A DNA stretch of 64,000 nucleotides from Mortierella sp. BCC40632 (taxonomy: Eukaryota; Mortierellomycota; Mortierellomycetes; Mortierellales; Mortierellaceae). A program made the position numbers and the translations under genes. Numbering within the stretch: position 1 is the first letter of the stretch; each line of letters starts with the position of its first letter. This document shows positions 10,000 through 46,416 of this stretch, in pieces. Where the stretch lies: NCBI GenBank assembly GCA_011634665.1, contig WAEK01000010.1, positions 361,001 through 425,000 of the forward strand, in the 5' to 3' direction. The notes beneath the pieces are model-generated. The model was not told where the DNA came from. It saw only the letters and a list, made by a program, of their open reading frames with translations, and searched no databases.

Positions 10000-12430
10000 G
10001 AGTCCTGGCCAGAAATTTTCAGCACATATAATTTTTAGAATAGCTGTGACTCAATTAAATTTAGAAATAATCACAGTCACAGGTTGCATTTGAAGGATGT
10101 GACCAGACTAAGATGGCCTCATCTCAATGCGCTCTGAAATGATCTCGAAAAACGATGCTGATTATCCTCTCGAGGTCAATCTGGATACTACTCTCACTCC
10201 ATCTCCAAGGAGTTCACCTGAACGTAGCGATTGCGTTCTAGAATGGTCGCCTCCGAAATCTAAAAAGAAAGGTGCCCGTCTTAAAAGGTCTCCTGTCAAG
10301 TTAAACCTCGGTCCGTCACCCACGCGGCGACCATACACCTATAATGGGTGGTTCCAACTGCCAACATCGAAGGCGGGGTCCGCGTGCCCTCTATCATCGA
10401 CCGCATCGGATGGCTCACCAAGCAAGCGCCAGCATGAGCGAAAGAGTGTACAATGTGAACCGCCACCAAGACTTATTCTCGAGAATACTGCAACTCCTGA
10501 AACAGAAGCAGCTACACCGATCAATAATACGCGTCGACGCCGTCTCATTGTAAGCGAGGATACAGAGGAAGAGCAAGAGCACCATGGCCATCAGGCGGAT
10601 CGATTTTGGAGTGGTGCGCAAGAACCATCCAAGAAACTCTGTCCCGTTACCATCGACAACATAGCTGCTTCCGAGCTTCCACCACTTTCTACACTCAAGC
10701 GTGATAAGAGTGACCTTTCAAAGAATGAGTTCACGGTCCTTGCTCATGTCTTCAGGATGATTCAAGAAGCACCGGCGCCCGTCCTGAATTGGTTCAAGAG
10801 CCTTGGAAAGACTGAGTCTCAGCGATTGTCAAAGTTGTCAGGAACCGGAGAGAACTCGTGCAGAGCCCCCATCCAATTCGCACTGACGGGCACTCAAAAT
10901 TTTGTTGAAAAGAAAAAGCGGGGGAGAAACTTGAAAGCTATGGATGAAGAATACTCTACCAAACTGAAGGACATGGTCATGAAATCCAACAGTCTTGGTC
11001 AGCCGAACTCTTCCAACCGCATTGCGAATAGCTTAAAATAGATTGGGATTAACAGGTCACGAAGATCTATCACTCGGGACCTCCACAAGCTAGGGTTCTA
11101 CTGGGGGAAGGGTGTCAGACGCCATCTCTACCATGACGCGCCACAAAATGTTGCATATCGAATGGAGTATCTGAAGCGTCGCTTTGAGAACCTCGTCCAA
11201 AAAGATGGAAAGTGGAGACCAGTAGTGCCGGAAGTATTCTTAGATGAATCGTATTGCCACCTAGACCATACGACAGCAAGCAGGTGGGTAACTCCGGGCA
11301 TGGCGGTGTCTGAAGCAGGAAAGCAGCCAATATTGGTTATTTTCGCGGCATTCGTGGTTTATTTCGATCAGGACAAGCAAGAAGTCATCGGGAGATTTGT
11401 AAAAGATAGTGTACATATCTGGCCAGCTCTTGGTAAAGCGCACCTCCAGAAAGCAAACGGAAGGCGGACTGGTGCAGACGCCCAACTTTGGCACGATGTG
11501 CCTTCCGAGATTAGAGAGGCAGGGATCATTGCTACAGATCATGACTACCATGGTAATTTCAACGCCGAACTTTTCGATAAACTCTTCCAACGGCTATGCA
11601 ACAACCTCACCGAAATGGGACTTGGTCCTTGTAACATCCATCTTGATGGCGCGTCATACCACTTCCACAAGATGAACAAGAAACCGACATCTAGCTGTAA
11701 GAAAGAAGACATCCTGAAGTGGATTAATGACCAAGGGCATGAAATCCCCCCTGGCACAGAAGGGAGAGATGCGACCAAGACCCAGCTGCTGGAGTACCTG
11801 AAAACGCTCCCAGATACATCCCAGTTCACCATTCATAATATTGCAAGAGATAACGGAGGACATCGTATTTTGAAGACTCCTCCATATCACTGTGAACTTC
11901 AGCCAATCGAGAAAATATGGGCCGTCGTCAAGAATATCGTTGCTTCAAGAACAGCAGGACGTATGGCTTCTGTTGACCTCAAGAGAATGCTAATGGGAAT
12001 TTTTTTTGGCATCCCTAGCAGGATATTCATATCTGTTTGGGAGAAGTGTATTAAAACTGCCCTGGATTACACCACCACGACTGCCCAGTCGGCACCGATA
12101 ATTACTCATAATGAGGCTACGACGATGGCTGAAACTGCAGAGACCCATGCCATCTCATCTGAGTACTGGGCAGAGATTCTCAGAGAGGTGGAGTCGTATG
12201 ATACCCAGCTCCAAATCACTATTGACTCGTTAGAAATGAGTTATGACTTTGATGAGTTATTTGAGTAGGTCGGATCAGGGAATAGAGCTCCTTGTTAGTG
12301 CACAACTTTTCTAGCAATAAAAGAGTGTTTCCAGCCCCTCTCTCCCTCCGATGCATGAAAAGGCTCAGATTTTCTTTTGAGTCACCTCTACTCTAAAATT
12401 ATATGTGCTGAAAATTTCTGGCCAGGACTC
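10000..12430 (+). mobile_element. Complete Tc1/mariner-type DNA transposon
   Basis: The terminal inverted repeats are identical over 36 bp (10000-10035 and 12395-12430; outer bases GAGTCCTGGCCAG) and flanked on both sides by TA (9998-9999 and 12431-12432), the expected target duplication of this superfamily. The single transposase frame inside has one nonsense codon. The near-perfect ends suggest fairly recent insertion, or an element still mobilised in trans. Confidence 0.92.
10127..12268 (+). pseudogene. Tc1/mariner (IS630 superfamily) transposase with one in-frame TAG
   Basis: One frame runs 713 codons, broken only by TAG at 11039-11041. Residues 1 to about 300 form a long Ser/Pro-rich, basic region unusual for small Tc1 transposases. 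The stop falls within the helix-turn-helix-like DNA-binding part (SNRIANSLK, then SRRSITRDLHKLGF). The catalytic DDE domain follows: first Asp in VFLDESYCHLDH, second Asp in NIHLDGASYHF and the Glu in LQPIEKIWAVVK. The C-terminal tail is acidic. Cut-and-paste transposition at TA sites is the known role of the family. With the stop read as termination, the remaining catalytic half would lack the DNA-binding region. Confidence 0.88.
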
Positions 12431-19383: not shown

Positions 19384-22300
19384 CTTTTTTTTTTTTTTTT
19401 TTTTTTTGTTAACGAGGGCCCCACGTGGGCATGCAGAGTTTATGGAATACCGGGGCTACTGCCCCGTTGTCACTTGGGCCATAGCAGGATCTAGCCCTGC
19501 AAATAAACACTAAATAGTTCTACCTAATATCCAGATACTCTGTTCGCCATCACCCACGTCGCATGAGTGGTCGTAATGCCAGCTCCCTACGCGGCCTGTT
19601 GCGCTCATTCGTCGTCGTCGTCTTTTAGCCCTCTTGGTCCATCGCTAACATTTTTTTTTCCAACTCCCCAGCCGCTCCATCACCTCCAGCTTCCTTTTCC
19701 AAGGTAGTACTCATGCACAGTACGGTCTGCTTCATCGTATGCCTCCTTGAGGTTCGGCTTCTGCCTCAGCGGATTGTTCAAGTCGGAGAAATCTCCACAG
19801 CTACCTTGGTGTCCGTCAGCACCGTTGCGTCTCCCAGCGCGTTTGCTCACTGCAGAGATTCCTATCGACTTTTCCCAATTCACTGTGGTGTCACACCGTT
19901 GGCCCCAGATCTGCTTTCTACCATACTCCTCAATGTTCTCAATAAACCGGCTGGCCATATACTTTGCCGTAGTCCCTGTCGTCCTGTGCATTATCTTCCA
20001 TCTTAGCACCAACTCTTTTGGTACTAAGCCTTGGTATGCTTCCATGATGGTGTGCATCGGTTGGTCGTCTTCCTCCTCGTTGTCCCTCTCCTCGTATTCC
20101 CTTGGCCGGATATTTGCCACACCTTGAAAAACATCCTCCAGCGAGTCCCACAACTCCTCATCCTGTCTTTCTGTGAACCTCGGCTCCTTCTGCCTGAACT
20201 TCTTCTTTTCCTGCTGAGCCTTCTCCTTTCTTTCTTTCCTTCCACTCTCCTTTTTCTCCTTCAGCCACTGTCTACGTCCACTGTCCTTCACTCTCGACAC
20301 CATCTCCTTCCATCCTTCTTCCTGCGTCTGCCTCGTTGCTCTACATCTCCCACGTGCTCCATCGTTTCCGGTTCCTCCTCGCAGACTCTGCACGTATCCT
20401 CCTCATATAGGTCTGGGTGGCGCTTCTTCATCTCGGTTAGAGTCGGCAGCATCCCATGCAGTTTCTTTACCCTGTGCGCTCTCTTCTTACAGTCGCTTTC
20501 GCTGGTAAAAAATCCCCTTGGCGGGTTCCTGCTGTGGATAATGTCTAGAGTTGGACTCCATTCAATGGCTTTCCAGTTCCTGATGTACCTCTTGGTCCTG
20601 TTCTGTCTAAGCCAGTGTTGGTGTATCCTCGCCGCCGACTGAAGTTTGAGCAGCTGTCGCACGTCATCCTCTAGCGGATCTCCTAGGAATGTTGCTCTAC
20701 AGCCGTACTCTTCCTGCATTCTGTCGGGCAGTTTCCACTCTTGTCTTTCTCCCCTATGCGCCCTGTTCGCTAACCGGTCCGCCGCCTCATTGCCACCCAC
20801 ACCCGAGTGACCTCTGACCCATTCAACTGTAACCCGTTCTCCCTGATTACAGTATGCCCTGTGCACCTGCGTCCACCACTCCCGCATACGTGGCTCTCTG
20901 CTTGATCCTGCGAGTAGCATCCACGCGGCCCTTTACTAGCTTTTTGAAAGCCTTTGACAACAGCCGTGTTGTCCAAGCGGACTATTGTCTCCCTTCTCCC
21001 GTGGGCTGCATAGGATTGCTGCGAGGAGCCCGATCAGCTCTGCCTTCGTCGACGACGCGTATCCACTTGTTGATCCTGAGATAATAGAATCGCAGCCATG
21101 CCCTCGCTCTGCCACCACTCCGAAAGTCATCTTTACACTGTCTTTGCCCATGTCTTTCATTGATCCATCAGAAAACAATACAATGGTGTCCTCGTCCTTC
21201 AGTTGTTCTCTCCACCGTTTGACTTCCTCGATCGTTAGTCTGTTCAACTGCACTCCTTCAAAGACTCCCTGTGGCTGTACCTCTGTAACTGCTTCTCGGA
21301 GTGGTATTGCTTCCCTCGCCATGGCTATTTCGGCTTCCCTCCTGACGGCGTTCCTTCTGTCTGTGTTGTCGATGTTCACCAGGTGTGTCAGCCTATTCAG
21401 CCATGGTCTCCTTCTTCTCCTTGCGGACTCCTTGGCGTACCTTGTTCGGAGCGTTCTTCGCAGTCTTATCCGACTTCGGTACTCGTGCCTTCTCCGCCTT
21501 ACAATTCGTCTTCTTTCTTTTTTCCTTTTTTCCTTCTCTTTTTCTCTTTCTTTTTTCCTTTTTTTCTTCTCTTTTTCTCTTTCTTTTTTTCTTTTTTCCT
21601 CTTCTTTTTCTCTCTGCTTTTCCCACTCTTTCTCAAGTGATTTTTCCAGCACTTCGAACTCATATTCCAGGTCTTCGCGCACAATCCACTTGTTCCCCCC
21701 TCTTCCGACCATTCTCTGTCTAACCCATGTGTCTTTCCTCGTTTTCCTTTGGGCGTATGTCTCTTGCATCCTCTTTGTGTCTGCCCTGTTCTGCATCGAG
21801 AACACTCTTCTCACTACCACTTCTTCTCTTTCTCTTTCCTCGTTTTCATTCTCGCTTTCTTCTTCACTCTCACTCTCTTCTTCACTCTCACTCACTTCTT
21901 CACTCTCACTCTCTTCTTCACTCTCTTCCTCTTCCTCAGTTGTGTATGAAGCCTCTGTCTCAATTGCTTCCAGACGCTCCTCTACTCTATTCTGCTGCTT
22001 TTCTGTCCACCTCCTTAACACCTCTCTCTCGGCTTCCTGTCCACACATCTGCTTCTGGATATTCTGGTACCATTTAGGCGGGAGAATCTTACTGTCGTTG
22101 AAGCGTCTCCGGAACTCACTCCAAGCGATCAGGTTTGTTTTCTCCTGGTCCATGATCTGCTCAGCGAAGAGTACTCCCCTTTTCCCTAGTTGGACTTTCA
22201 TCTCTTCATCTAGTCCACCCCCCATCCATTCTTGGATGCTTACTGCTCCGTTACTGAGTCCAAGGTCGGGTCCAAGGTCCACTGCTAAGGTCATTCCTCT

Positions 22301-22585
22301 ATCTGCAAGGATCTGACACACTCCACTAGTGATACTGTGTCTCTGGAGCTCCACAATGTCTGGCACCAGGGTAGGTACTGACGGCAACCTCTGTGCTTTC
22401 TGCAACGCGAACAGTCGTGCACGGGCTGTTATTCCAACCAGTCCATTGTCTCCGAGTCGTAGCCATAGGCTTGTTATTTGTTCCTCAGCCTGGACGTCCT
22501 CGAGCCTCCTGATTGCCCCCAATCTTGTGTGGTGAACAATACTGTTGGGTGTCGTTTTAGCGAGCATGCTTGCACCCATATCCAT
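19384..22585 (-). mobile_element. LINE-B copy 1: RNase H-bearing non-LTR retroelement, 5'-truncated
   Basis: The first frame (22585 to 20936) encodes the region after the reverse transcriptase: an acidic Glu/Ser repeat block, a Lys/Arg/Glu coiled stretch and then an RNase H domain starting IVLFSDGS with the Glu in STKAEL. Two frameshifts separate the rest: LDNTAVVKG, then GHSGVGGNEAADRLANRA, completing the D-E-D-D set. A Cys-rich knuckle follows (CRVCEEEPETMEH). A second ORF-like tail (20393-19680) follows in a shifted frame. The element ends in GGCCCTCGTTAAC plus a 24-base poly(A) (19407-19384). The reverse transcriptase core is missing, so it is dead on arrival and frameshifted. Confidence 0.87.
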
Positions 22586-23300
22586 TTTTTTTTTTTTTTC
22601 ACTATGACACCACAATATTGGGGTCTATGATTTATTACAAATGGGTTGCTCTTGAGAGTTAGGATTTTCCTATTTGTCCCGGAAATCTACGGTGGTTGTG
22701 TGTTGATATATTCTCGCGTGCCCTTGCTGTAGGCCTTCCTTGGTCGTCCTTGGTCTTGCTTCGGCGGGCGCATCCTGTGTGGCCTCCCAGTGTACATTTG
22801 ACTCAGTCTCTTAAAGTCTCGATCCGACATATTTCTTGACTTCCCCATCTCGTGTTTCGTCTGCGGCCCTCAAGTAGTTCATTTTCAAAGTATGGTTGCT
22901 GTTCTTTCAGCAACCCACTTGCAAACCATAGGCTTGGAGACAGCGGCACCACCAAACTGTTTGCATGATTAGGTCGCTGTGCCTATTCCCTACATAGCCA
23001 TGTGAGGCCAATTTTTTTCGCCGAAGCCAGGGAGCCTATCTCCTGTGTGATACTTTCAATTCCTAAGATTTACCATTTCCCACTTGCACTTCTAGGACCG
23101 TCCTAGTCATGCTCCGGGGTTGGGGAGTGCTTTGTAAGGGGGACTGGAAGAGCTGGAGAGGACAGCTCTTGGGACCTGGTGCTACACCTGCCACCAGGGT
23201 AGATGCGGAGATTAAATCTTAGCCTTGGCCCCGAGCACAAGTAGAAAAAAAACTTAGAAATTTTTCCGTATCACTTTTCCATGGCTCCCAAAATTAATTG
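22586..23300 (-). mobile_element. Candidate tRNA-headed retroposon or retrocopy ending in AATAAA and poly(A)
   Basis: On the minus strand this ends with AATAAA (22636-22631) and then a 15-base poly(A) (22600-22586) that directly precedes LINE-B copy 1. A 52-codon ORF starting MGKSRNMSDRDFKRLSQ lies near 22860-22700. The 5' side is close to a tRNA-like sequence with a perfect B box. The whole may be a long SINE or a retroposed transcript; only the 3' tail is well supported. Confidence 0.4.
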
Positions 23301-30572: not shown

Positions 30573-31461
30573 GGCGGGAATTTTCGAACCCCAGTTTGGA
30601 GTCGCTTATTATGTAAGACACATTAGCGAGGCCTCCCTCCAGGGAAATATTCGATCTTGCAAAAAGAATCTAAAGAGGCCTGTCTCCTGTGGACTGGTCG
30701 TTAGACACAGAGTACTGTAGTCTCATTCCTGCACTATCAACCCAGCACCCTTATATTGAGATATGAGGAACTGTCGTCTGATATCCAGAAGATGTGATTG
30801 TCTGAGCTTCGTTTAATGATTAGAAGGGAAAGCAAGGGATGCTCAGGATTTAGGCGTATATTCTAGGAGACTTGCGCCTAGTGGTGTAACCCAACTAAGG
30901 CGACTATACACTATGCTTCTCAACCTTTCATCCTTCACAACGAGTGTTGTTTCCGAAGGTATGGTACATGTTGTAGCCCACCCTAGGATGGCGATTCCGT
31001 ACTCCCTTTAATCCAGTAGTTTCATCTTTGGAAACCAATAATCCCACTAGCTGGGTTGCCGCCCTTTTGGGTGCACTCCATTGTCTACGCCTTACCCTTG
31101 ACGGGAAGGTTCTTTGCATTGATCTCCATCCTCCCGCCTACAAACCACGCTGTTGATCCCTGCACATATTGGCAACAGGGCGGGCCCACTCAGGGAAAAG
31201 GGACTAGAACAAAGAGGAGGAAGAGAAAAAGAAGTAGGGAAGGTGGGGGTTTGAAGAAAGGGGCAGAGCTCGGTGTACGAAGGAGAAAGGTCTAAGAGAT
31301 TTTACTAGAAAGAGAAAGAGAAAAGAAAGAGAAAGAGAAAGAGGAAAGAGGAAAAAAAAAAAAAAAAAAAAGGAGCACGATTGCTATAGAAACAGGGGAT
31401 GGACCCCCTTCCACTGATGGCATCCCGCTTGGCATTTGGGCCTTACCGCTCCTTTTCTTCT

Positions 31462-31529
<68 letters not shown>

Positions 31530-31919
31530 AATTATATCAACTCCTTGCACCCTCCTTCTTCGAAAGCTTTGGCGTCATCTTAGCTGCTTTGACCTAAAGG
31601 GAAGAGTGGACGTGTTTTCCTCTCACCCCTTTTGCTGACCCTTTCCATTTTCTACAGCGGCGAAAAAAAAAAAAAATAGTCCCCCAAATCTCCCCAGACA
31701 TCTCTCTCTCTCATTTCTCTTTCTCTTTTCTCTTTCTCTTTTCTCTTTCTCTTTTCTCTTTCTCTTTTCTCTTTCTCTTTTCTCTTTCTCTTTTCCTTTC
31801 TTCTGACGTTCGTCACCTCGGCTCATTCTGCACTTTTTACTCTCGTTCCAAATTTCCCTGTGTGTCCTCTTTGAAACTCTCAGTTTACTCTCTTCAAGGT
31901 CTTGGGCCTTGTATGCGAC
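30573..31919. other. Upstream region of the giant gene, with pyrimidine repeats
   Basis: No gene is seen. Notable are a poly(A) tract (31351-31371), (CT)n at 31471-31523 and a CTTTTCTCTTT-type repeat at about 31715-31797, just before the start codon at 31920. This is a likely leader/promoter region. Confidence 0.6.
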
Positions 31920-34900
31920 ATGAAGCTAGGCAAAGGGGCTACCGGGCTCAATAGCCGCTCAGCCATCCGCTTGATCTGTGTCGCGTCACTGGTTCTCTCT
32001 GGACTAGTGTCGCATGCCAGTCTCGCTGCGGCAAATGACAACAACGATGCAGTTGCTGCCTCCAACATCAACGAATCTCCTCCCGTTCATGATCTCCACA
32101 TGAAGCAGCAGCATCATCATCATCATCACAATGCTCTTAGATCCGAGGAAAGCTCTCCTAAGGAACAGAGTGCAAGCACTGGCCACAAGCCAAAGAAACA
32201 TGGTAAAGCTCAGAAGAAGGGTCATCGCCATCATCATATCAAGAAGCTCTACCAAGTCCGTTCTCAATGGAAAAAGCCAGATGCAAAGTCTGGGAGAGGC
32301 CACACTAAGGAGAAGTGTGCTAACAGGGGCAAGGACAAAGGGAGTCCTGTCACTGGTAAAGTGACGCGAAAAGAGCAGCCAAGATCTAGACTTTTTCTTC
32401 CTTTACTTCTACGCTTTCCTCACCAAACATGTGTCTACACTCGATCTCGATATTAGCCTCCTTTGGAATCTTGGTTTGCGATAACAGGACTATCAGCGCT
32501 GTCTACTGTCCTACAGGCACCAAGCCTCGTCCTGGTGCCCAACTGAAGGAATTCCTCGACCAAGCGCTCGGCCAGGAGCCGTCTAACGAGCTCGATCAGA
32601 ACCATATCAGGTTCCACACCAAGGGACACAAGGGTAAAGGCGCTCGTGGTCGACATTGGCACCGAGGAAAGAAAGGCCGCAAGCACTCCGGTGGAAAGCA
32701 CCATCGCAAGCATCACTCGAAATGCCGTGACAAGAATGATAAAAAGTGCCGTCAAGCTCATCGCCGCAAACATGGTCATCATCGAAACAAGAAAGGGGAA
32801 CGTCGTGTGGCCTATCTGGACATTATTCCAATGGATCCACCTTGTCCAGTGCCCATCAAGGAAGACATTGCCCGAGCCATTAAACAGTTAACTGCGCGCG
32901 ATCTGGAGTTGCTCAAGCCCTTCATCAACTTGAACACTTACTCCGAGATGCTTGCCACAGATATAACCTCGGACACCTTGTCTGCTCAAAATAACAAGGG
33001 TGACTGCAAGGGTGTCTGGGACGACAAATGTACGTCCGTTGGCGTCTTTTGTGGAATCGATATCTTTGGTTGCAACACCATTGACGATGGACTTTACAAG
33101 TGTGACTCGATCGGTGGAGATCCCAAGTTGCTAGAACTCTGTCCTCTTGGTGGATGTGTCTCTAGAGTGGATACTAATGAAGCATCGAGCTGTAGACAAA
33201 GCGAGTGCGAGTGTTCTGAAACTGGCTCCGTAAGTTCAAATGTCCCCCCTCTTCTCTCTCTCTCTCCTTTGAACCTTTGACTGTCTAGGGTTTAGGTCTA
33301 AAAAAGAAGTTAATGTCGAGTTTCCCTCCTTTTTCGAACTGCCATTTTTAGGTTTGCGGTTCCAGTTTCCCTCCAAGCTGCAGACTCGACCCCGATACTC
33401 TCTATCACTGCAAGGCCTCCAACACAACTCCCGTTGCTGTTCAGAAATGTCAAGGACAATGTCCCAAGGGTGCGACTGAATGTGAACAAGTTATACCTCC
33501 GGAGTGTGAGTGTAAAGCCATTGGAACGGTACGTCAACGTAGTTTGTTCGGTCGCGATGTCCTATCTCTTTCTTTCTTTTTCTGTCTTTCTTTCTAAAGT
33601 AGCTGGATTTGTGCATTTTTTTTTTTTTTTACATGAACTATCTAGATCTGTGGTTCTACTTTCCCCGACCATTGTGGATACGAGCCAAACAGCCTGTATG
33701 CATGCAAGGCCGAGGGTGATGCACCAATCATCATTGAAAAGTGCAAGTCCAACGTTTGTCGTCCTGGTCTTCCGAGCTGTAGTATTGTTGAGTGTGAATG
33801 CGCAAAAACCGGAAAGGTAAGTATTTTTTTTTTTTTATATTAAAAAAAAAAAAAAGGACCACGCCCAGTTGAGTATCTCACTTTTTTATATTATTATTTT
33901 TTTAACCATGTCATTTTCTTTTTTTCTTTTTTTCTTCTTTTTGTTTGTTTGTTTTGTTTACCCAAAAGACCTGTGGTTCCAATTTCCCAAAAGATTGCGG
34001 ACTCGAGGATAATTGGCTTTACGATTGCACTCAGCGTATGCTTCCTGTTCCCTTGTACGAATGCAAGAGCAAGTCTTGTCCAAAGGGCTCTCATGAGTGC
34101 GCTATTGACCCTTGCGCTTGCAATTCGACCGGCCAGGTAAAAAAAAAAAAAAAAAAAAAGGATCTTTGGTGTCTTTACTGGTTGATCAAGGTTTAAAGGA
34201 CTGTAATCTGATCCATCATCATTATCTATTTTTTTTTCTTGTTTCTAGATCTGCGGATCGACTTTCCCTGCGAGCTGTGGACTCAAGAAGGATTGGCTGT
34301 ATGAATGTGTGGCTGAAAACCGCCCGACGCCTTTGTTCGAATGCAAGAGTAAATCCTGCATGGCTGGAGCTACCAAATGTGACGAGGACCCTTGTGCTTG
34401 TAAATCAACTGGAGAGGTATGTCTTCAAACACCGCGTAATTCCTGAAAAATCGCCTACACGATAAAGCAACTCGAGACTGATTCCTAGCTATCTTATAGA
34501 TTTGTGGTTCAACATTCCCAGCCAGCTGTGGGCTTAAGAAGGACTGGCTCTATAAGTGTGTGGCGAACGAGCATCCTACTCCCCTCAACGAATGCAGGAG
34601 CAAGTCCTGTCCATCGGGCGCCAACAAGTGTGACGAAGATCCATGCGTTTGCAAATCGACCGAACAAATCTGTGGTTCAACCTTCCCCGATAGTTGTGGA
34701 CTCAAGAAGGATTGGTTGTACACCTGTGTGGCCAACAGCGGTCCTACTGAACTGAAGGAGTGTACAAGTAAGTCTTGCCCATCTGGATCCAATAAGTGTA
34801 CCGAAGACCCTTGCGCCTGCAAAGCGACCGGACATGTAAGTATTTTTTAAGCTCTTTCTAGCACCCCTAGTCCACCATCTGGCGAGTATTTCCTTTTTTG

Positions 34901-36618
34901 AATTTTGTTCGTCTAATAGTTTTTTCGTTACTCGGTGAATTACTTTTAGATCTGTGGTTCCACTTTCCCAGATGGCTGCATGCTCAAGGAGGACTGGCTC
35001 TACGAATGCGAGGCTGAGAAACGTCCAAAGCCCCTGATTGAATGCTCAAGCAAGTCCTGCACTGCCGGGAACTCTCAATGTGATGAAGACCCTTGTCTTT
35101 GCAAGAAGGACCAGCTCAAGGTAAAAAAAAAAAAAAAAAAAAAAAGAATTACTTGTCAAGTTATGTTTGTGTTCGTGTATCTCCCCCTCCCTCTCTAAAC
35201 AATCTTTTGGTGTGTGTTGTAGATTTGCGGTTCTACTTTCCCAAGCCGGTGCGGATTGTCCAACAGCTCGCTTTATCTCTGCTCATCCGAGGGCTCCAAG
35301 CCAGCGTTGGTCAAAGAGTGTCCCTCTGGTGTTTGCCTTGCTGGAAAGGATAAATGTGAACCTGGTCCATGTGATTGCACAAAGACTGGAAAGGCAAGCT
35401 TACCGAACAAGACTCTTGTGCATGTCATGCCTCTCTGCCTCCCTCCTCCCCCTTCCCCTTTTTTAACCAAGACTCTTACATCCTCTCCCTCTGGTTTTTT
35501 TTTATCGTGTAGCTCTGTGGTTCAAGTTTCCCTGAGAGCTGTGGACTCGATCCAGGCTCGCTCTATGAGTGCAAAAACGTCGAGTCTCCTCCTGTTTTTG
35601 ACAATAATTGTACTTCCAGAATCTGCCCCAAGGACGCCTCCGAGTGCACAATCGACGAGTGTTCATGCAAGGCTGCTGGCGATGTAAGCCCATTTTTTTT
35701 CCAAGGAAATGAAAGAGGCCGGGGGAAGAGCGTGAAGTGTTCGGTGGTAATTATGATTGTTTTATTTTCTCTAATCTGTCCTTTTTCTTCCTCTCTCACC
35801 TAGATTTGTGGATCTGACTTCCCAGCTAGTTGTGGATATGACCCAGATACACTATATAGATGTAATGAGGCTGGTTATAAGCCTATTGTTGTCCTGAAAT
35901 GTCGCGCGGGCTGCACAAAGGGAACAAACAAGTGTGCGATTGATAGGTGCTTATGCAAATCTATTGGAAAGGTAAGGCTACTCTCTGGTCATTTCGTGGG
36001 GAGTATTTTTCATCAATATCTAGACACAAGGTATGATGTTCTAAATGATAAGTTATTTTCGTTCTGCATGACTAGATCTGTGGTTCGACCTTCCCTGAAG
36101 ATTGCAACCTCAAAAACAACGCGCTTTACGACTGCCTCACGGATAATGGATCGCCTGTCGTCCAAGAAGAGTGTGGTAAAAAGACATGTCCTAGTGGTGG
36201 TTCTGAGTGTGTGATCCCACCTTGCACATGCAAGGAATCCGGAACAACGGTACGTTCTCCATTGGATCCTTTTTGCTTTGTATGTCTCACCAAGTTAGCC
36301 ATTTCTCATTAACTCATATATAACATCTAATGGGGGGTTTTTTTTTAATCTAGATCTGTGGATCGAGCTTCGATAGTTCTTGCGGACTTGAAAACGGAAC
36401 ACTCTACACTTGTATCGATATCGGAGACCCACCTCGCGTGAACCGCAGGTGTTCATCTGGGGAGTGTCGACCAAACGAAAAGAACTGTGTCCCGGGACCT
36501 TGCGAGTGTACTTCTGTTGGAAGGGTAAAGTCAAAAAGATTTCTTTGTCGGTGATTAGGGCTGCGTCTTATCTCTAGTACGGAAAGGCCGCTTTCTTAGC
36601 TAATGATTTCATGTGTCG

Positions 36619-36650
<32 letters not shown>

Positions 36651-39600
36651 CTTTCTGCAATTAGATCTGCGGTTCTACATTCCCTGCAGAGTGCAAATTG
36701 AATCCTAATGCTCTCTATGAATGTGTCTCGATCAGTGGATTGCCAAAGCTTTATGAGAACTGTAAATCAGGAAAATGCACCTCAGGAAACCGCGTTTGCG
36801 ACGAAGACCATTGTGCTTGCAAGACCAATGGCACTGTAAGTGAATCTCGAGAGGTTTCGACCATTTTTTCTTCATCTTTCTATTGTTTCCATGTGGGCAA
36901 TTTTCGTACATGGATTGCTAAGGTTGCTAACGTTCTAATTTTTTTTTGTTGTTGTTGAAATAATAGATTTGCGGTGCTTCCTTCCCAGTTCATTGCCATC
37001 TCGAACCAAATGCAGTGTACAGATGTGGCGGAACAGGATCTGATCCTCAGCATCTGAAAGACTGTATGCCATACGTGTGCAAGAGCGGTGATTCAGACTG
37101 CTCACCCGACACATCCTGTATCTGCAATTTCAATGGCAAGGTAATTGAGCATAAAGAGAGGACAGGATTTCCTTCATTCTTATTTTGAGATATTCTGGTC
37201 AACTCTGGAAGAGTAGATCATCTTGAGCAGAGATATTGTCTTATTCATTTGATTTTTCTTGGCGCGTCTTCTAGGTCTGTGGAGTGGACTATCCATCCGA
37301 ATGCGGTCTCCAAAGCGACTCTTTGTATGAGTGTATCTTGGGCCAAAAGCCTGAAAAGATCGCCAAATGTATCCCAGGAACTTGCCTGGCAAGAACCGGA
37401 AGATGTGACCAAATCGACAACGATTGTCTCTGCAAGAAAGCGGGACAAGTAAGTGTTTTCCTTTCTTCTTCAGTCTCTCGGGTATTTTCGTAAAGTGATA
37501 TCGAAAGGCCATGGATCTAGGTCAGCTAATGAATGCTCCCCTACTCTCCTTCATTCCTTCAAATAGACCTGTGGATCCAATTTCCCCCGCAAGTGCAAGT
37601 ACTTGAAGGAGGCTACTTACTCTTGCCCAGGGGTTGAGGAATTTCCAAAACTTATTGCCTACTGTCCTTCTGGTTCCTGCCCCGTTAACTCTGACGAATG
37701 TGCCCCAATTGACAAGTGCGATTGTGACACGACAGGAAAGGTAATTTTTTATTTTCATTCTTTTTGCCGCTCACTCCAAGTTGCTACCGCCTTTACTTAC
37801 TAAATGGACCTAAATTGTGATATCGTCTATCAAAAAAAGATTTGCGGATCAACCTTTGACAGCACTTGTCGTTTTATCAGCGAGGCTCTTTATGAGTGCA
37901 AGGTTGTCGGAGATCCACCTGAAATCATTGAGACTTGCGAATCCAAGAAGTGTACGAGTGGTGCATCAGAGTGTGGTGAGATTGACCCATGCGCATGTCA
38001 TATCACTGGCCAAGTAAGTGTTCTAGATTTCAGATGTAGAGGAGACCAATCCGAGTATCTATTTCATCACACACCTTCCTTTTCCATCCTCACTAATCGA
38101 TTTCCTCCTTCTGCAGATCTGCGGCTCTACGTTTGATCCAAGCTGTGGACACAACCCAGATACACTATACTATTGTCGAGATGAAGGCGATGCACCTTCC
38201 TCTATCAGAGACTGTGGTCGTAATAGGTGCCCCAATAATTCAACTGCCTGTCTGCCAGACCCTTGCCTGTGCACCGTATCCGGTCAGGTAAGTTTGTGAT
38301 GTGTCTACAATAGTGTAATGAATACAAGGAAATTACGAGAGGGCATCAAACAAACCCAAGCTCTCTTTTGTCTACAAATGACACCCGTAGATTTGTGGCT
38401 CGTCGTTCCCCACAGAGTGTAGATTTGAGCGCAACTCTATCTACTTCTGCAAGGGACCTGGCAGCAAGCCAGATTTTATCGCAAACTGTGAGTCTAAAGA
38501 CTGTCCAGTAAACGCAACCCAATGTACTCCTTTGCCCGACAAGTGTGTTTGCGATAAGGCTCAACAGGTATGTTTGCAGAGTGAAAGTTTTACCTAAGAC
38601 CAAGGAAGAAATGGATCTCTGAGGAGTAGAACATTAATTCGCTATACTATGATTTTCATCTTTTTTTCATCCTTGATTTATAGATTTGTGGATCCACATT
38701 TGACCAGTCCTGCAACCTGGATCCGAACTCGCTTTACTACTGCGGTGGAAAGGGCGAAAAGCCCAAGCCCGTCCAAGAATGTATTTTTGGCACCTGCCCT
38801 TCCGGTACTAGCAATTGTGTGCGCGACCCATGTCTTTGCACTGGAAGCGGGCTCGTAAGTGAAAATTCCTCATCTAAATACTCCCTCTGAAGAAAAAGAG
38901 AATGTGCTGTTGAAGTGAAACTAGCGCTAAATTCTCTACCCTATGTCCTATCCCATATTAGCCATGTGGAAGCGAGTTCCCAGCCGAGTGTAATCTGGAT
39001 CCAGATACCAGGTACAACTGTGCGGCAGATGGCAGTAAGCCAGATCCAGTCAAGAAGTATCCTCCTGGACAATGTCCCGACCAAAAGGATCCGTGCCTGT
39101 GCCAAATCAACGGCACTTTGTGTGGCTCTACGTTGATCAAGGCGAATTGCTCCACTTCTGAAACAGATTCGAATGCGATCTACAAGTGCGAGGATAAAGA
39201 GTTCCCTGTGCTTGACACAGCATGTCCTGATACGGCTATGTGTCAAGAAGACTCTTCTGGAGCCAGTTGTAAGGAGGATCCTTGCAGATGTACTGAAAAC
39301 ACGCGAGTAAGTACGAGTCTTAATAAGGATCTCCAAAAAAGGGATAGGCTACAATGCATAGTGCGACTGAACCCTGATATTAATGTAATCGTTTCTATTT
39401 TTTTTAGACATGCGGTAGTAGCGTGGACGAGAGCTGTGGTCTTGACAGAGGCAGTACCTATATCTGTAATCAAGGCAATTACGAACTTGATGCTAATTGT
39501 ACCGAAGGTTGTAATGAAAGAACTGGAAACTGCTTTACTCCATGCGAATGCAAAGGCAGCGGAAAGGTCTGCGGATCAAGGTTCCCAGATTGTGGACTGG

Positions 39601-39976
39601 ATACTAGAATCCTCTATGACTGTGCAACGGGCGGTCAGCCAGTCCAAGCTGAAGACTGTAAACCCGGTACCTGTGAAGACAACACCGCAGTGAGAAGCCA
39701 GCCCATCTTTGCAACTAAATATGATGACAAATGTTCACCAAACCCCTGTCTATGCGGTGCTGAAGATGGCCTGGTCTGTTCGTCCAAGTTCCCTGAGGAA
39801 TGCGGTTTTACAAGTGAATCGGTCTACTCATGCAAAAGAAGTGGAGTCCAGCCAGAACGCGTTCGAGATTGTAACCCAACGGTGTGCGAGGTTGTCGATG
39901 GAGCGGCGCAGTGTCGAAGAGATCCTTGTGCCTGCAACACCACTGGATCGGTAACTCTTTTCATTTATTTATTTAT

Positions 39977-40007
<31 letters not shown>

Positions 40008-43000
40008 AACGGCCAGGATACTAACAACTATCTTCCTTCTTGTTCTCAACTATGAATGATGAATAGTTCTGTGGATCGGAGTTCCCAGCCGACTGTCGGC
40101 TCCCAGGCAACACGGTTTATTCATGCACAGAGGTGGATGCCCGCCCAGTTATTGCCACTACATGCGATCCTCAGAAATGTATTCCTAACAACGGAGCGGC
40201 CTCCTGTTCACTTGATCCTTGTGTCTGCCAGAGTGACAACACGACGGTATGCATAAAAATGGAAGAAGGGGGGGATCATCCTGATTTGAAAGTTTTCTGA
40301 TATCGGCTTTTCAAAGGACCAGTGCGCCATCACTAATCAGTCATCATTCATTTTATAACTTTATTATAGCTTTGCTCAAATGAATTCCCAAGGAGCTGCA
40401 GGTTGACCGTAGATAGCGTGTACTCTTGTTCAAGAAGAGGAGACCCGCCAGTACTTGTTCAAGATTGTGCTCCTGAGAAATGCTCCAAGACGGCTAACGG
40501 AGCCAGATGTAACAAGAACCCATGCCTTTGCAGCGAAGCAAGAGACAAAGTAAGTCAAAGGAATTTAATATGAGACTCGTCTTTATCGTAGGGCAAAGTG
40601 GAAGGCCATGCTAAAATACGAACGCAAATTTGATGTGATATACTTATAGGTTTGTGGAACGGAATTCCCTGAACGATGCGGATATGGCAACGCGACGATT
40701 TACAAGTGCTCCGGAAACAATGTCCTACCAGAAGCAATTGAGCAATGTCCAGAGACACTTCATTGCGCCTACGAGAATGGCGGCGTAACGTGCCATAACG
40801 ATTTGTGCCATTGCCGTGCTGAAGATCTTGGTGTCAAAGTAAGGGATACCAAAAAAATGACTGACTATGATTTCTCAACAGCTGCTCTAGTGCTTACTGA
40901 ATCTATACTTGATATCCTGTTAGGCATGTGGATCTGACCTCTATGCAGCATGCGCGTACGACAATGAGACTATCCACACCTGCGAGCAGGTGGGCGATGA
41001 GTGGGCGATAATCCAAGATTGTCTGCCAGGAAGATGTGTAACCCTAACCCCTGCAGAACCAATGTGTGCCTTTGAGCAATGCATCTGCAAACCTGAGGAC
41101 AATGGCAAACAGGTAGCTATTTTTTTTTAGCGTTGAAGAGTGGATGACCTGGCTGAAGTCACTCTCTTGCAGTCTTGCAGTGGCGACCATTCGTGGTTAA
41201 TTTATTCACATACGTTTACTTTGACGATAGTTCTGCGACACCAACTTCCCGCAAGAGTGTGGTCTCGAAAAGAACACCATCTACACATGTAACCAAGATA
41301 CAGAAGTTCCAATCAAGGTCGAAGCATGTGATCCTCATCAATGTGTCCGAAACAGCGTTAACGGAACAGCTATTTGTGAAAAGAACCCCTGTCTTTGCGA
41401 TGGAGATTACACCGTAAGACACTTTCTAAAATGGCTTGCTTCTGGGAACTTTATCCCTTCAGAGGGATGGGAAGCAATGCGGGTCACTAATCCGTCTCCT
41501 ACTCCTCACCTTCCCACTAACTATAGGCCTGTGGAGCTACCTGGCCAGCGAATTGCAGATACGAGGGTAACTCAATCTACAAATGTAGTGGAAAGGATAC
41601 CCGACCAACCCTTCAATCAGATTGCAAGCCTGATGTCTGTGTTATGGACCCGAACCAAGGCGCTGTCTGTCGATTGTTGCCATGCAAGTGTGCTAGCGAG
41701 GATCCTGATGTAAGTCCATGGCAAATCAATATTGACAATATTTGTTGTACTTTTATTGAAGAGAAAAAAAAATATCTTGCTAACATTCCACTGAACGTTG
41801 AAAATTCAAAATCTGGCGGAGAATAGCTTTGCGGCAAGCAGTTCCCTGCTGAGTGTGGGCTGAAACCAGAGGCGATCTACAGCTGCTCTGGACGTGGCGC
41901 TGATCCAGTGCTAGTGCAAGAATGTGACAAGGAGTGCTACCATGAATTCTCTGATCACACTTCCCGATGTATCGCTGGTCCTTGCGACTGCCCACCGGTT
42001 ACTGAGCCTACTGATGTAATTACAGCCATTCCTTTCAAGAAAATTGACTGGGAGAGAAAAAAACCCTCTTGTAGGGATCCATTCGGCTAATCTCTCTCTC
42101 TCCTTTCTAATTCATGGCTCTTAACAATAGTTCTGCGGCGCCAACTTCTTTGGATGTGGCTTGAGGCCCAATAAGCTGTTCACTTGTACCGAGACAGGAA
42201 AACCACCTTTCTTGAAGGAAGACTGCGAGGGAGAAGGAAAGGCTTGTGCCGTTCTTGGAAACTTGACCGGTATTTGCGTCCCACTCAACTGCGAGTGCCA
42301 ATCTGGAAAAGACTTTGTAAGTGAGATGGATGGTCTCTTCTCGTTATTAATTCTTGGATTACTACTGTACGAAATCATGCTAAATAACGGCTCGACCCCT
42401 CTGATGACTAGATGTGCGGTATTGAATTCCCTCTTCCACACTGTGATGTCGAGTTGAACAGTTTGTATTCTTGCGAGGACCCCAAGAACCCAGTGATTGT
42501 TGAGCGCTGCATTGGAGAATGTGATCCATTCCAGGCCACCTCGTTCTGTAAGAAAGATCCATGCTGGTGCAAAGCCAACAGAACTGAGGTATGAAAAAAA
42601 TACTCTTGTCTTTATTTGAAAATTGAGATTTGTTCTGGACAGAAAAAAGATTAATAGGGAAGGCTAATCATTTGGATCGATCCGTTATTTTCCTAATGGT
42701 GATTTAGATGTGTGGTTCGGAATTCGATGTGGATTGCACGAAATACGATGCCAACTCTCTCTATGACTGTTCGAATGCTACCAACCCTGTTCTCAAGCAA
42801 GATTGTGATCCTGGTTTCTGCAAGATTAATCCATCGGCTCATTGCTTTATCGTTGACTGCTCCTGCAAGGAGGACATGAATAAGGTAAAAAGAAAAAAAA
42901 AATCTTCGAGTTTTGAAGCATGACTGTTGGAGCATTTGATAAGAGGCAGATTTTCTCAACATTCTCTCTATTTTCTCCCTTCCTAGATTTGTGGTAACAA

Positions 43001-44501
43001 ATTCCCAAGTGAGTGTAACCTTGGATCACGCTCAGTATACGATTGTTCGGGTGGTAAAGAGAATCCTGTGTTGGTGGAGGATTGTGCCCCGGAAGAATGT
43101 ATCATGCAAAATGACGTCGGTCAATGTAAAATCAACGAGTGTCTTTGCAAGGAGGGCGTCAAGACGGCAAGTTCGCGAAGTCCTATATCCAACATTGTTA
43201 TTGTTTTTTTATACATTACCAGATGGGTGATTGTTTATTAATTTTAAGTTCTTTTGATTGTTGCTGAAACAGGCCTGTGGATCTAGTTTCCCAGAAAGCT
43301 GCGGTTACCCAAGAGACTCAAAGGCTATTTTCAGCTGTGACGGTGTTGGACAGAGACCAGTTCTTGTTACCAACTGTACTACGGAGTGCGAGTTTACTAG
43401 TGATGGTCAAGCAAGATGCAAACCTGACCCATGTCTCTGTGGCAAGGAATTCGCCGGAAAGAGGGTTTGCGCCAAACAGTTCCCTGAAGAATGTCCACTC
43501 ACCACGGATAAGCTTTACTACTGTGACAAGGAGACCGATCGACCAGTCGTGGCTGAAGATTGTCCTCTTCCGTCCACATGTGAGATCGACCTCGGCACTG
43601 GCTCCTGTGTGGCCCCGTTCGACCCGTGCAAGTGCCCAGCTGACAAGGTCACGATTTGTGGCTCTCAGTTCCCAGAGGACTGCGCGCACGATAAGGAGAC
43701 TGTCTTCAACTGTGAGGGAAGAGAGAAACAAGACCCAGTCCCAGTGGCTTCCTGCGCACCACGAAAATGCATTCCTGAGAATTCTACTGCCTACTGTGAA
43801 CCTGATCCATGCCTTTGCAAGACTAACAACACAGTTGTACGTTGGACGAAAAAGCTCCTGGATTTGATTCCTAAAAAAAAAAAATGGAACGAGAGTTGAC
43901 TCATCATATTGCTTCTGTTTCTATCTCTTTATGATAATAGTTCTGTGGATCGTCCTATGTTAAGAATTGTGGCCTTGATCAAGACACTCTTTATATTTGC
44001 AGAAATCCAGGAGTTCTGCCTGAGCTCATTGCTAAATGTGACGCAAATGGATGTGACTCGACCACTAGTTCCTGCAGACCTGACCCTTGTGGATGCCCCA
44101 GAGTCGCCCAGGCAAGTCAATTTTTTTGTCATGATTCAGCAGTACCTTCTTCCTTGACTGAGAGGAAGAAGGACAGACAGAAAGAGAGTGAGAGCGAGAG
44201 GGTCGATTCTAATAGTCTCTCTTATTGTTGTGATAACCTACCAATAGCTCTGTGGATTGGACCTCGATCCTACATGCGGATATGATACTTCAACACTCTA
44301 TGAGTGTCCAAAGGTCGGCGAGAAGCCTACCAGCTCGATCAAGTGTGAATACGGCTGTGTCAAGGGATCTGACAAGTGTACCGAGCCCCCACCCGATCCT
44401 TGCGAGTGCAAGAAGGCCGGACTGGTAAAGAATCATGTTATTTGTGACAGACTGAATAGAATGGTTGGTCCGTAATCTTTGTCCTCTGGCTAATCGATGT
44501 T

Positions 44502-44537
<36 letters not shown>

Positions 44538-46416
44538 CCAACAACAACAGATTTGTGGATCCGCTTTCGACATAGATTGTGATTATAACCCTGACACTTT
44601 GTTCGAATGCTCAGACAAAGGAGCGAAGCCTGTTAAAAAGGAGAAATGCATTTCAGGAGGGTGTGTCTCTGGAACGACATCTTGTGTACCAGATCCTTGC
44701 AAGTGTGGTAATGCTCTATTGGTAAGTGACTTTGGACCTCTTTTGTGATTTCTCGTAGATGTGAAAGAAGAAGAAACGATTCATGAACAATTCCTGATGC
44801 ACTACTATTCCTACTACCTTTTTAATTAGACCTGTGGATCCGATTATCTGGACTCGTGTGGATTCTCCAAGGACAAGATCTACTCTTGCACAGGCAAGGG
44901 CGCTATTCCTAGGCCAGCCCAGGACTGCTTGCCAGGCTATTGTGAGAACGTGGATGGAAAGGCTGTTTGTAAACCAAACTGCAATTGTATCGACAATAAG
45001 GACACTGTATGTTCACAGAATGCTAAGCCTGCTTGTTCAAAGACGAATGGATTGGACGATCATTCGTAAATTAATTCTAACGGTTATGCTCTACTTTTTT
45101 TCCCCCCTTCTGTCCTGGGTACCAACAACAGTGCGGTATTGATTTTGACCCAGGATGTGGCCTTAATAACGATACCCTCTACAGATGCTCTGCTGTCAGA
45201 GCAGTGCCTAAACCTAGGGAAAAGTGTAAAGAAGGCGCCTGCAAAACTGGAACGCACGAATGCTATGTGGACCCTTGCGAGTGCAAGAGTGTTGGAGATC
45301 TCTGTGGTAAAGACATTTGTACGACTCTTCCAGCTGACACAGTCTATGCATGCTTGAGCGTCGGGGGCAAACCCCAGGTCAGACAGAATTGCCCCAAGGG
45401 TAAATGTAATGGTGGTAAATGCGAACCAGTGGAGTGCCTTTGTACCGATGATGGACCCTTCTGCGGAAAAGAGTTGCCATGCCCAGGACTCGATCCAGCG
45501 GGATACTACGCGTGCACAAAGGGCTATAAACCATACGTCATTGGCAAATGTACTGATGATAAACCAGCCAGGGGAGATTGTCTCTGCAACGATGGCAATT
45601 CAGTAAGTAGATTTAACATTGTAGACAGTTTTGCTAAGACTCCCTCAACCCCAACCCTACTCTTTACTGACAGATTTCTTTTGCTCTTTGATATAGATGT
45701 GCTCTACGTACTTCCCTGCAGAATGTGGATATAATCGAGATCAGGTCATGGGTTGTCCCAATGGCCAGGGTACCAAGCCAGTTACTCTTCATCAATGCGG
45801 TGTTGGAAAATGCTTGAGTTCTATCAAATGCGACCTTGACTGCAAGTGTAAAAACAGTAACAATGTAAGTTCACTCGCTCGACAGAGATTGGACGTGTTA
45901 CGCCTTGATTCCCTATCTCTTTCCTTCTCTTTTTACTGATATATATGGTGGAATCTACTATAATTCCTAGGCGTGTGGCAAGCAATTCGATCCTTCATGT
46001 GGATACGATCCAGGAACACTTTACTCTTGCTCTGGTGCGGGAGCTACACCCAAATTTTCTAAATCGTGTGGAAGGGGCGATCTTTGCGCGACACCTAATT
46101 TCGTCGGTCAGTGTATCAAGGAGTGTGTCTGTCCTAACGTTGATAATGTAAGCTCCGCTTTTTCTTTTCCTTTATCCCTTCCTCTCCCCCTCTCCCCTCT
46201 CTCTTCTTTGTTTCTCGCTTTTAAATACTAATGTTTCTTTCTTGACTCTCTCTCCAGACATGTGGTGCATGGTTTGCGTCTAGCTGTGGACTTGACCAGT
46301 CGGCCATATATCGATGCGACTATACCGGAGCCAGTCCTGTTTTAACAAGCAGATGCTCTATTCCTTGCGGTGTCCGGAATGGTCCCGACAGGTGTGGAAG
46401 TGAGGTTCCGAAGTAA
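31920..46416 (+). CDS. Giant secreted cysteine-rich modular protein, 43 exons, about 3238 residues
   Basis: The ATG at 31920 opens a signal peptide (core IRLICVASLVLSGLVSHASLA). Exon 1 (31920-32355) and exon 2 (32517-33229) add a His-, Lys- and Arg-rich N-terminal region, a helical segment and one divergent module. Exons 3-43 (33352 to 46416) all have lengths divisible by three and phase-0 borders. Most encode exactly one module of 55-63 residues with eight cysteines: CGSTFP, then CGL four to five residues on, LYxC, a PxxxxxC turn, two more cysteines, then DPCxC, ending TGK/Q at the exon edge. Exons 7 and 22 hold two modules and exons 23, 35 and 40 three, about 50 in all. Introns are short. 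I do not recognise the family. The arrangement suggests a rod-like extracellular or wall protein, and chitin- or glycan-binding is only a guess. Confidence 0.85.
33969..35120 (+). repeat. Block of the most similar modules (exons 5-8)
   Basis: Exons 5 (33969-34136), 6 (34249-34416), 7 (34500-34835, two modules) and 8 (34950-35120) share the variant GLKKDWLY…CxSKSC…KCDEDPC far more closely than other modules do. This fits recent local duplication, including one intron loss in exon 7. Confidence 0.75.

Follow-up and report, generated by a model that had tools for sequence, protein, structure and literature searches.

What sort of gene strings together some fifty cysteine-rich modules, most of them in exons of their own, and does such a string still grow and shrink, or has it long been fixed? 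The question is posed by a 64,000-nucleotide stretch of the Mortierella sp. BCC40632 genome (contig WAEK01000010.1, positions 361,001 to 425,000; C10:361001-425000 of a genome assembled into 62 contigs with 49.9 Mb in all), which is called the window here and to which all plain coordinates refer. On its forward strand, between 31920 and 46416, lies a gene that had been read from the letters alone as a chain of one-exon modules able to vary in length by recombination. Our analysis points to a different history: the array appears to be old, its modules keep their order across species, and long exact repeats are found instead in two paralogs in which many modules share one exon. With the predicted product comes a family of giant proteins that are rich in cysteine, look secreted, and take several architectures; the sources searched assign them no function. 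To our knowledge, little is known of the surface proteins of this fungal group.

The splice model was computed by dynamic programming between the ATG at 31920 and the TAA at 46416, initially with 44 exons, and was adjusted manually in its N-terminal exons and at four further borders (three GC-AG introns and one AAG acceptor, which the score penalised). The adjusted model predicts 43 exons and an open frame of 3258 residues with 50 modules and 403 cysteines. The 43 exons and about 50 modules of the sequence-only reading were thus recovered, while its total of 3238 residues had to be raised, since exon 2 starts at 32457 instead of 32517. We set this start because the added stretch, ILVCDNRTISAVYC, aligns with P0013, a homolog introduced below, and resembles an LxCDxxxIDxIxC motif in paralogs B, C, and D. 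From exon 3 onward, all 41 exons have lengths divisible by three, as claimed, and 41 of the 42 introns, namely all after intron 1, are in phase 0 and coincide with a module border, so that intron borders equal module borders in one phase in 41 of 41 cases. These introns lie 5, 6, or 8 residues past the CxC motif that closes a module (27, 11, and 3 cases, respectively). The splice sites look ordinary: donors are GT in 39 introns and GC in three (after 35393, 43166, and 44111), corresponding to the GC-AG introns that follow exons 9 (35394-35512, GCAAGC), 34 (43167-43272, GCAAGT), and 36 (44112-44247, GCAAGT); acceptors are TAG in 35, CAG in five, and AAG in two. A branch-like CTRAY motif was found in 19 of the 42 introns, where shuffling predicts 6.7, and none of the 10 introns with a length divisible by three can be read through.

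The identity of exon and module holds for the introns, all 41 of which fall at module borders, but not for every border: 8 of the 49 are free of introns, with exact joins, and five exons hold two or three modules each. These are exon 7 (34500-34835, modules 6 and 7), exon 22 (38962-39306, modules 22 and 23), exon 23 (39408-39950, modules 24, 25, and 26), exon 35 (43273-43836, modules 38, 39, and 40), and exon 40 (45132-45602, modules 45, 46, and 47). Exon 1 (31920-32355) encodes a signal-peptide-like start (MKLGKGATGLNSRSAIRLICVASLVLSGLVSHASLAAA), which resembles that of homolog P0017, and a His/Lys-rich stretch. Exon 2 (32457-33229) adds the ILVCDNRTISAVYC motif, a His/Lys/Arg-rich stretch, a YLDIIPMDPPC motif, and module 1 (from 33047); it aligns with P0013, and similar motifs occur in paralogs B, C, and D. 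The protein looks secreted, judging the signal peptide by eye, and the basic, His-rich N-terminus noted earlier was borne out, with 29 His, 34 Lys, and 18 Arg in 210 residues and a net charge of +35 without His. The array itself (33047-46416) comprises 50 modules of 48–69 residues with 394 cysteines and a net charge of about −109. Its pattern is looser than first described: eight cysteines are present in 47 modules rather than in every one, with six in the other three, among them modules 22 (without C4 and C6) and 47 (without C5 and C6), and the DPCxC ending attributed to all modules closes 20 of the 50, whereas CxC closes 49. Exon 43 (46258-46416) encodes the last module, which lacks the closing CxC, and ends with the TAA at 46414-46416; this end is common to homologs such as P0013 and P0014.

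A search of the genome with two modules returned 123 matches, mostly from the window gene and two paralogs on contig C6. Among public proteins, a first search gave 12 hits (9 named and 3 unnamed) and a second 53, all named; the named homologs are annotated as ‘hypothetical’, ‘unnamed’, or ‘uncharacterized’, and all their genera belong to Mortierellaceae. A two-module profile retrieved one unnamed protein of 201 residues, and no further small relatives were seen at the sensitivity of that protein search. In a local copy of Pfam, two modules and the first 1238 residues of the window gene had no match at E-values up to 10, nor had three multi-module window exons at E-values up to 0.1. P0024, P0038, and P0040 bear the precomputed Pfam accession PF27397.1, which is absent from the copy used and may cover the module or another part. 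Sequence searches of the PDB with module profiles stayed at chance level (complement receptor pieces with E-values of 1.1 and 2.3; a zinc finger with 0.36), and the module family was not described among the matches listed (titles and starts of abstracts) in the open-licence literature. Within the sources searched, the earlier statement that the family could not be named stands.

Fifty-seven of the 65 proteins P0001-P0065 have six or more countable modules; 16 are closest to the window gene (A-type) and 41 to paralogs B and C (BC-type), so that there are two old subfamilies. Two A-type proteins belong to the same family as the window gene and are probably its orthologs. BGX31_006705 of Mortierella sp. 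GBA43 (P0014) has the C-terminal end of the window gene, and BGZ76_006471 of Entomortierella beljakovae (P0013) shares both this end and the N-terminal motifs. They align with the window gene over 2403 and 2566 residues (52 and 45% identity, respectively), and for this reason the long frame is not due to chance. They differ from it in the kind of evidence, being gene models whose exon structure is not visible in the protein records.

Module orthology was assessed by reciprocal best modules in 15 homologs. In P0014, 30 of the window modules 19–50 (32 in total) have reciprocal best, collinear partners, and the differences between the window gene and its homologs lie mainly in modules 2 to 18. 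Over the whole array, the numbers of paired modules were 33/36 in P0014 (33 collinear), 23/37 in P0013 (22), 23/34 in P0015 (22), 24/27 in P0020 (22), and 17/17 in P0035 (14); the other ten homologs were shorter or weaker, with collinear pairs of 12/17 in P0018 and 4/9 in the BC-type P0021. Within the window gene, none of the 1225 module pairs exceeds 80% identity. Among the most alike modules (4–8), fourfold sites agree in 33 of 105 cases over seven pairs, against a fraction of 0.30 expected of unrelated codons, and modules 5 and 6, 79% identical in protein, do so at 2 of 19. No exact repeat in the coding sequence is longer than 21 bases (30 in the genomic stretch). Length variation by recombination, which the sequence-only reading had proposed, was accordingly rejected for this gene: its modules are collinear across species, the fourfold sites of its most alike modules match about as often as in unrelated codons, and long exact repeats are absent. 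The best local scores among the 861 pairs of the 42 introns came mostly from poly-T or poly-A runs; introns 3 and 34 share a short non-simple stretch (score 23 against a best shuffle of 18.5, the shuffles having kept base composition only). Recent exon-plus-intron duplication, or introner-like introns, was therefore also rejected, with reserve for this one pair. Growth by exon duplication, the other half of the earlier proposal, is possible only as an old event in what appears to be an old array. Two observations speak against so fixed an array. The modules are short, and the cross-species partner beats the best paralog within the gene for only a part of them, namely 23/33 modules in P0014, 14/23 in P0013, 13/23 in P0015, 16/24 in P0020, 13/17 in P0035, and 3/17 in P0018; and the module counts of A-type homologs range from 9 to 36, though many of these models are partial or odd.

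Paralogs B and C offer a comparison within the same genome. According to their models, B (C6:1.32 Mb) has 40 modules in one 7212-base exon flanked by four-module exons, and C (C6:0.98 Mb) has 21 modules in one 3780-base exon plus four-module exons; both models are unreliable at the first exons and at the 3' ends, where modelling ended too early. Both share with the window gene a signal-like start, a His/Lys-rich stretch, YIxMDxPC-like and LCVAxGxFCG motifs, and the same module, and the introns in their modelled arrays are also in phase 0 at module borders. They differ from it in their giant exons, in having four modules per exon, and in the length of exact repeats, which, within the giant exons, reach 98 bases in B and 401 bases in C. 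In C, 34 module pairs exceed 80% identity, with fourfold agreement at 873 of 979 sites (a fraction of 0.36 expected), and three modules are identical in DNA. One module of B has seven cysteines, C1 being replaced by serine (CKCPSDGDTSGEAF; L024:3707-4081, reverse strand).

Taken together, these data suggest that an array split up by introns is also an unusually stable one. Among proteins with at least 12 modules, the median best module pair is 0.47 in A-type and 0.71 in BC-type proteins (p = 0.004 without correction for kinship). In proteins of other species, pairs at 80% or more number 1 of 3727 in A-type and 37 of 5994 in BC-type proteins; there the contrast comes from protein records, which do not reveal the exon structure. 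Inserts that look like introns and lie at module borders in A-type models, namely in P0020 (beginning V-R-V, as GTACGT reads), P0022, P0029, and, less clearly, P0013, are hints that A-type homologs are intron-split as well. A bolder version, in which the introns act as recombination insulators that fix position-specific modules across genera while intron-free sisters keep duplicating, and in which the units form a giant polymer of a bubble-protein-like fold with most domains built from two exons, is tentative and in our judgement rather doubtful. Insulation is called into question by the proteins with at least 12 modules, in which the share having a pair at 80% or more is 1/15 for A-type and 8/24 for BC-type (Fisher p = 0.12), and by the A-type P0019, which has a module pair at 90%. 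The causal direction may also run two ways: introns may prevent recombination, or arrays that do not recombine may retain introns. The occurrence of the same repeat with and without border introns in one genome is a natural comparison, which makes stabilisation of arrays by introns testable in other Mortierellaceae genomes.

The unit that folds seems not to be the module that the exons delimit. Module 50 lacks CxC, and the N-terminus provides two cysteines ahead of module 1; at the single-module loci, CxC precedes CG in five of five cases; and AlphaFold modelled a shifted unit with confidence. For these reasons, the folding unit seems to be shifted by about 8 residues, combining the CxC of one module with the six cysteines of the next, as in the example at 34635-34811 (CxC of module 6 plus C1–C6 of module 7). 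The shifted unit alone gave a predicted local distance difference test (pLDDT) value of 88 and a predicted template modelling (pTM) score of 0.68, with its first strand (residues 10–13) crossing the module border; the two-module model gave a pLDDT of 91.6 and a pTM of 0.66. Both models derive from exon 7, and it tells against this reading that the border inside them, between modules 6 and 7, belongs to the eight that lack an intron; 41 of the 49 borders have one. Metazoan genes of the fibrillin and LDL receptor type likewise have a cysteine-rich repeat per symmetric exon, usually in phase 1; the window gene differs in being fungal, in its phase 0, and in an exon apparently shifted against the folding unit.

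Losses of cysteines were followed in 1134 CxC-to-CxC stretches of 42–75 residues from the window gene, B, C, and public proteins, an extraction that hides loss of CxC itself. Six cysteines were found in 34 stretches (33 distinct). By eye, which leaves out two broken models (P0037 at 1021 and P0053 at 1398), the 31 losses were C4+C6 in 12, C5+C6 in 11 (in ten cases the same orthologous module), C1+C6 in 4, C1+C4 in 2, and C1+C5 in 2. An automatic vote against complete units placed 29 of the 33 within C1, C4, C5, and C6 (11, 8, 4, 2, and 2, with C4+C5 in 2); the remaining four were the two broken models and split votes in P0013 at 2420 and P0055 at 910. By the same vote, the cysteine missing from the 20 distinct seven-cysteine stretches is C6 or C1 in 12 and a CxC cysteine, C2, or C3 in 8; the rule thus holds for pairs and not for single losses. 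Among 983 distinct full units aligned with a hidden Markov model, two pair losses lay outside the set (C3+C5 and b+C5), both in P0004, where cysteine totals show single losses.

What such a protein might do can be approached from its layout. Walls of Mucoromycota contain chitosan, polyglucuronate, and polyphosphate. The structure of the gene, its family, the conservation of the array, the distribution of charge, and the architectures of the paralogs are computed results. As to function, we consider it slightly more probable than otherwise that the protein is a secreted, very long, disulfide-stapled modular rod with a cationic foot and an acidic array, residing in the wall or matrix, and belonging to a family so far found only in Mortierellaceae. 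The signal peptide would export it, and the positive His/Lys/Arg-rich foot would hold it in a polyanionic layer of wall or capsule, or on the acidic arrays of its neighbours. The acidic 50-unit array would serve the wall or extracellular matrix as a spacer or mesh that is stiff, long, and resistant to proteases, and each folding unit would span a module border (an exon border in 41 of 49 cases). The old introns would prevent recombination between the repeats and thereby let each module retain its identity and place. A wall or extracellular fibre, as envisaged before, is thus a plausible location. Related proteins contain the unit either in arrays or next to threonine-rich stalks that bear a separate C-terminal head (helical, propeller-like, or ricin-B lectin), which argues for a structural and display element rather than a catalyst. 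Two points count against the rod in the wall: the charge layout could equally serve metal or polyphosphate binding, and we only infer the rod shape, because the relative orientation of the modules is no more than moderately sure (pTM 0.66).

Structure comparison offered two other readings, each from a weak neighbour: CBM14 for the two-module model, and bubble protein/PAFC of Penicillium (PF09227; 1uoy and 6trm) for the single unit. Both likenesses lie below the level at which the notes of the comparison tool trust matches, and the best Foldseek E-value for either AlphaFold model was 2.8. That the array is a giant polymer of an antifungal-type, bubble-protein/PAFC-like miniprotein serving defence against soil microbes seems unlikely to us. 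Compared with CBM14, this neighbour shows a lower root-mean-square deviation and a higher identity; a Pfam entry agrees with it weakly, and with either kind of shuffle 1 in 200 attained its profile score. It shares with the module eight cysteines, a three-stranded sheet (as modelled for the unit), the spacing of the last four cysteines, and compatible cysteine clusters. The four disulfides of this family have the order abcabdcd; in PAFC they link 3-30 and 18-38 as against 28-54 and 49-64 (PMC7865535), and the co-loss set C1, C4, C5, and C6 would agree with these bonds if the last four cysteines correspond. However, a Z score so low may reflect merely a common arrangement, the Foldseek list to an E-value of 10 contains neither protein, the hhalign probability was 6.7%, and the sequence match is not significant: PF09227 matched 1 of 86 units at an E-value of 0.11 and none above its cut-off (23 bits), and had no genome match at E-values up to 10, where the positive control was likewise silent. 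The pairings within the lost set vary (4+6, 5+6, 1+6, 1+4, 1+5, and 4+5), and the 8 of 20 single losses outside it do not fit. The first four cysteines are ordered otherwise, the CxC of the module preceding rather than following the first two, and a 64-residue single protein stands against a 3258-residue chain. The array is moreover acidic, whereas the net charge of PAFC is low positive (PMC7865535). As a description of shape, the bubble-like fold has about an even chance on the models; as a statement of common descent or antifungal function, its chance is much lower. An array of modules binding chitin, chitosan, or another wall glycan in the manner of CBM14/peritrophin, a kind of likeness that had been suggested for comparison, appears quite improbable: the neighbour of the two-module model is weak and its deviations are high, PF01607 had no genome match at E-values up to 10 (the control gave 2) and is absent from the Pfam scans of modules and exons, and alignment by hhalign with five CBM14 pieces taken from chains in the PDB gave 0.3%. 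In the structure look at the single unit (VIA), CBM14 rows do not appear, which excludes nothing. PF00187 (CBM18/hevein) matched the genome twice, on other contigs and each time below the cut-off. The EB module (PF01683) resembles the modules in its cysteine-rich pattern, matching 10 of 83 two-module pieces at E-values up to 1 (best 25.2 bits in paralog B, cut-off 24.3; next among the matches listed 21.7); it matched none of 10 longer exons (three from the window) at E-values up to 0.1, none of the window gene pieces scanned, and in the genome two other places under the cut-off. We take this match as a shared cysteine pattern.

The chain might also be a polyprotein whose linkers are cleaved to release some 50 secreted peptides, small and rich in cysteine; with eight cysteines in about 58 residues, the units resemble small secreted proteins. 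We regard this as very improbable and rejected cleavage, since KR or RR occurs in just 1 of 49 linkers and any dibasic pair in 4; the folding unit, as modelled, seems to cross the linker, and single modules are embedded in stalk-and-head proteins. Scarcely to be expected, too, is a gene-calling artefact or a set of separate genes. The gene model was built from sequence alone and 43 exons are unusual for a fungus, but the phase-0 introns sit at module borders in 41 of 41 cases, homologs with the same C-terminal end align over 2400 or more residues, and modules 5 and 6, although alike in protein (79%), match at 2 of their 19 fourfold sites.

Beyond the rod-like arrays proposed for the window gene and its paralogs, the genome holds other architectures of the family. 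Gene D (C7) has a single open frame in which the N-terminal domain is joined by a threonine-rich stretch and by a helical region; the helical region is cysteine-poor and C-terminal (L031:3151-5226, forward strand). The open frame past the array of paralog C similarly leads into a helical, cysteine-poor C-terminal region (L025:1416-3092, reverse strand). Neither region had a Pfam match above the cut-off, and the C-terminal ends of P0021, P0038, P0040, and P0058 are in a similar helical style. Five single-module genes at C6:2.08-2.14 Mb have threonine-rich stretches, and some also have His/Lys-rich ones, before the module and a domain behind it that is called propeller-like from its appearance only. 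This domain had no Pfam match inside it in L028, L029, and L030 at E-values up to 1, and a search with it hit the genome nine times, always on C6; the run of such genes spans C6:2081497-2136297 (L027-L030 and L044-L052), and a further copy of the domain lies at C6:1945195. Repeats of about 30 residues of the type ITDTVDGQTYTRTVTNGQQTSYPC precede the stalk in L028:1-1695 and L029:617-3643, and L028 showed a weak, sub-threshold Pfam match to FIT1_2. In M. alpina, family member P0052 carries a C-terminal ricin-type lectin domain (residues 940-1064; PF00652, E-value 1.8e-12).

Elsewhere in the window, GA, CT, and TTTCTC repeats form long purine- and pyrimidine-rich tracts directly 5' of the gene start (31300-31800). 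An open frame at 20936-22624 on the reverse strand showed a sub-threshold match to the ZIP zinc transporter family (PF02535, 27.5 bits against a cut-off of 35.1), and one at 11042-12268 on the forward strand resembles a DDE_3 transposase (PF13358, 31.7 bits; cut-off 28.6).

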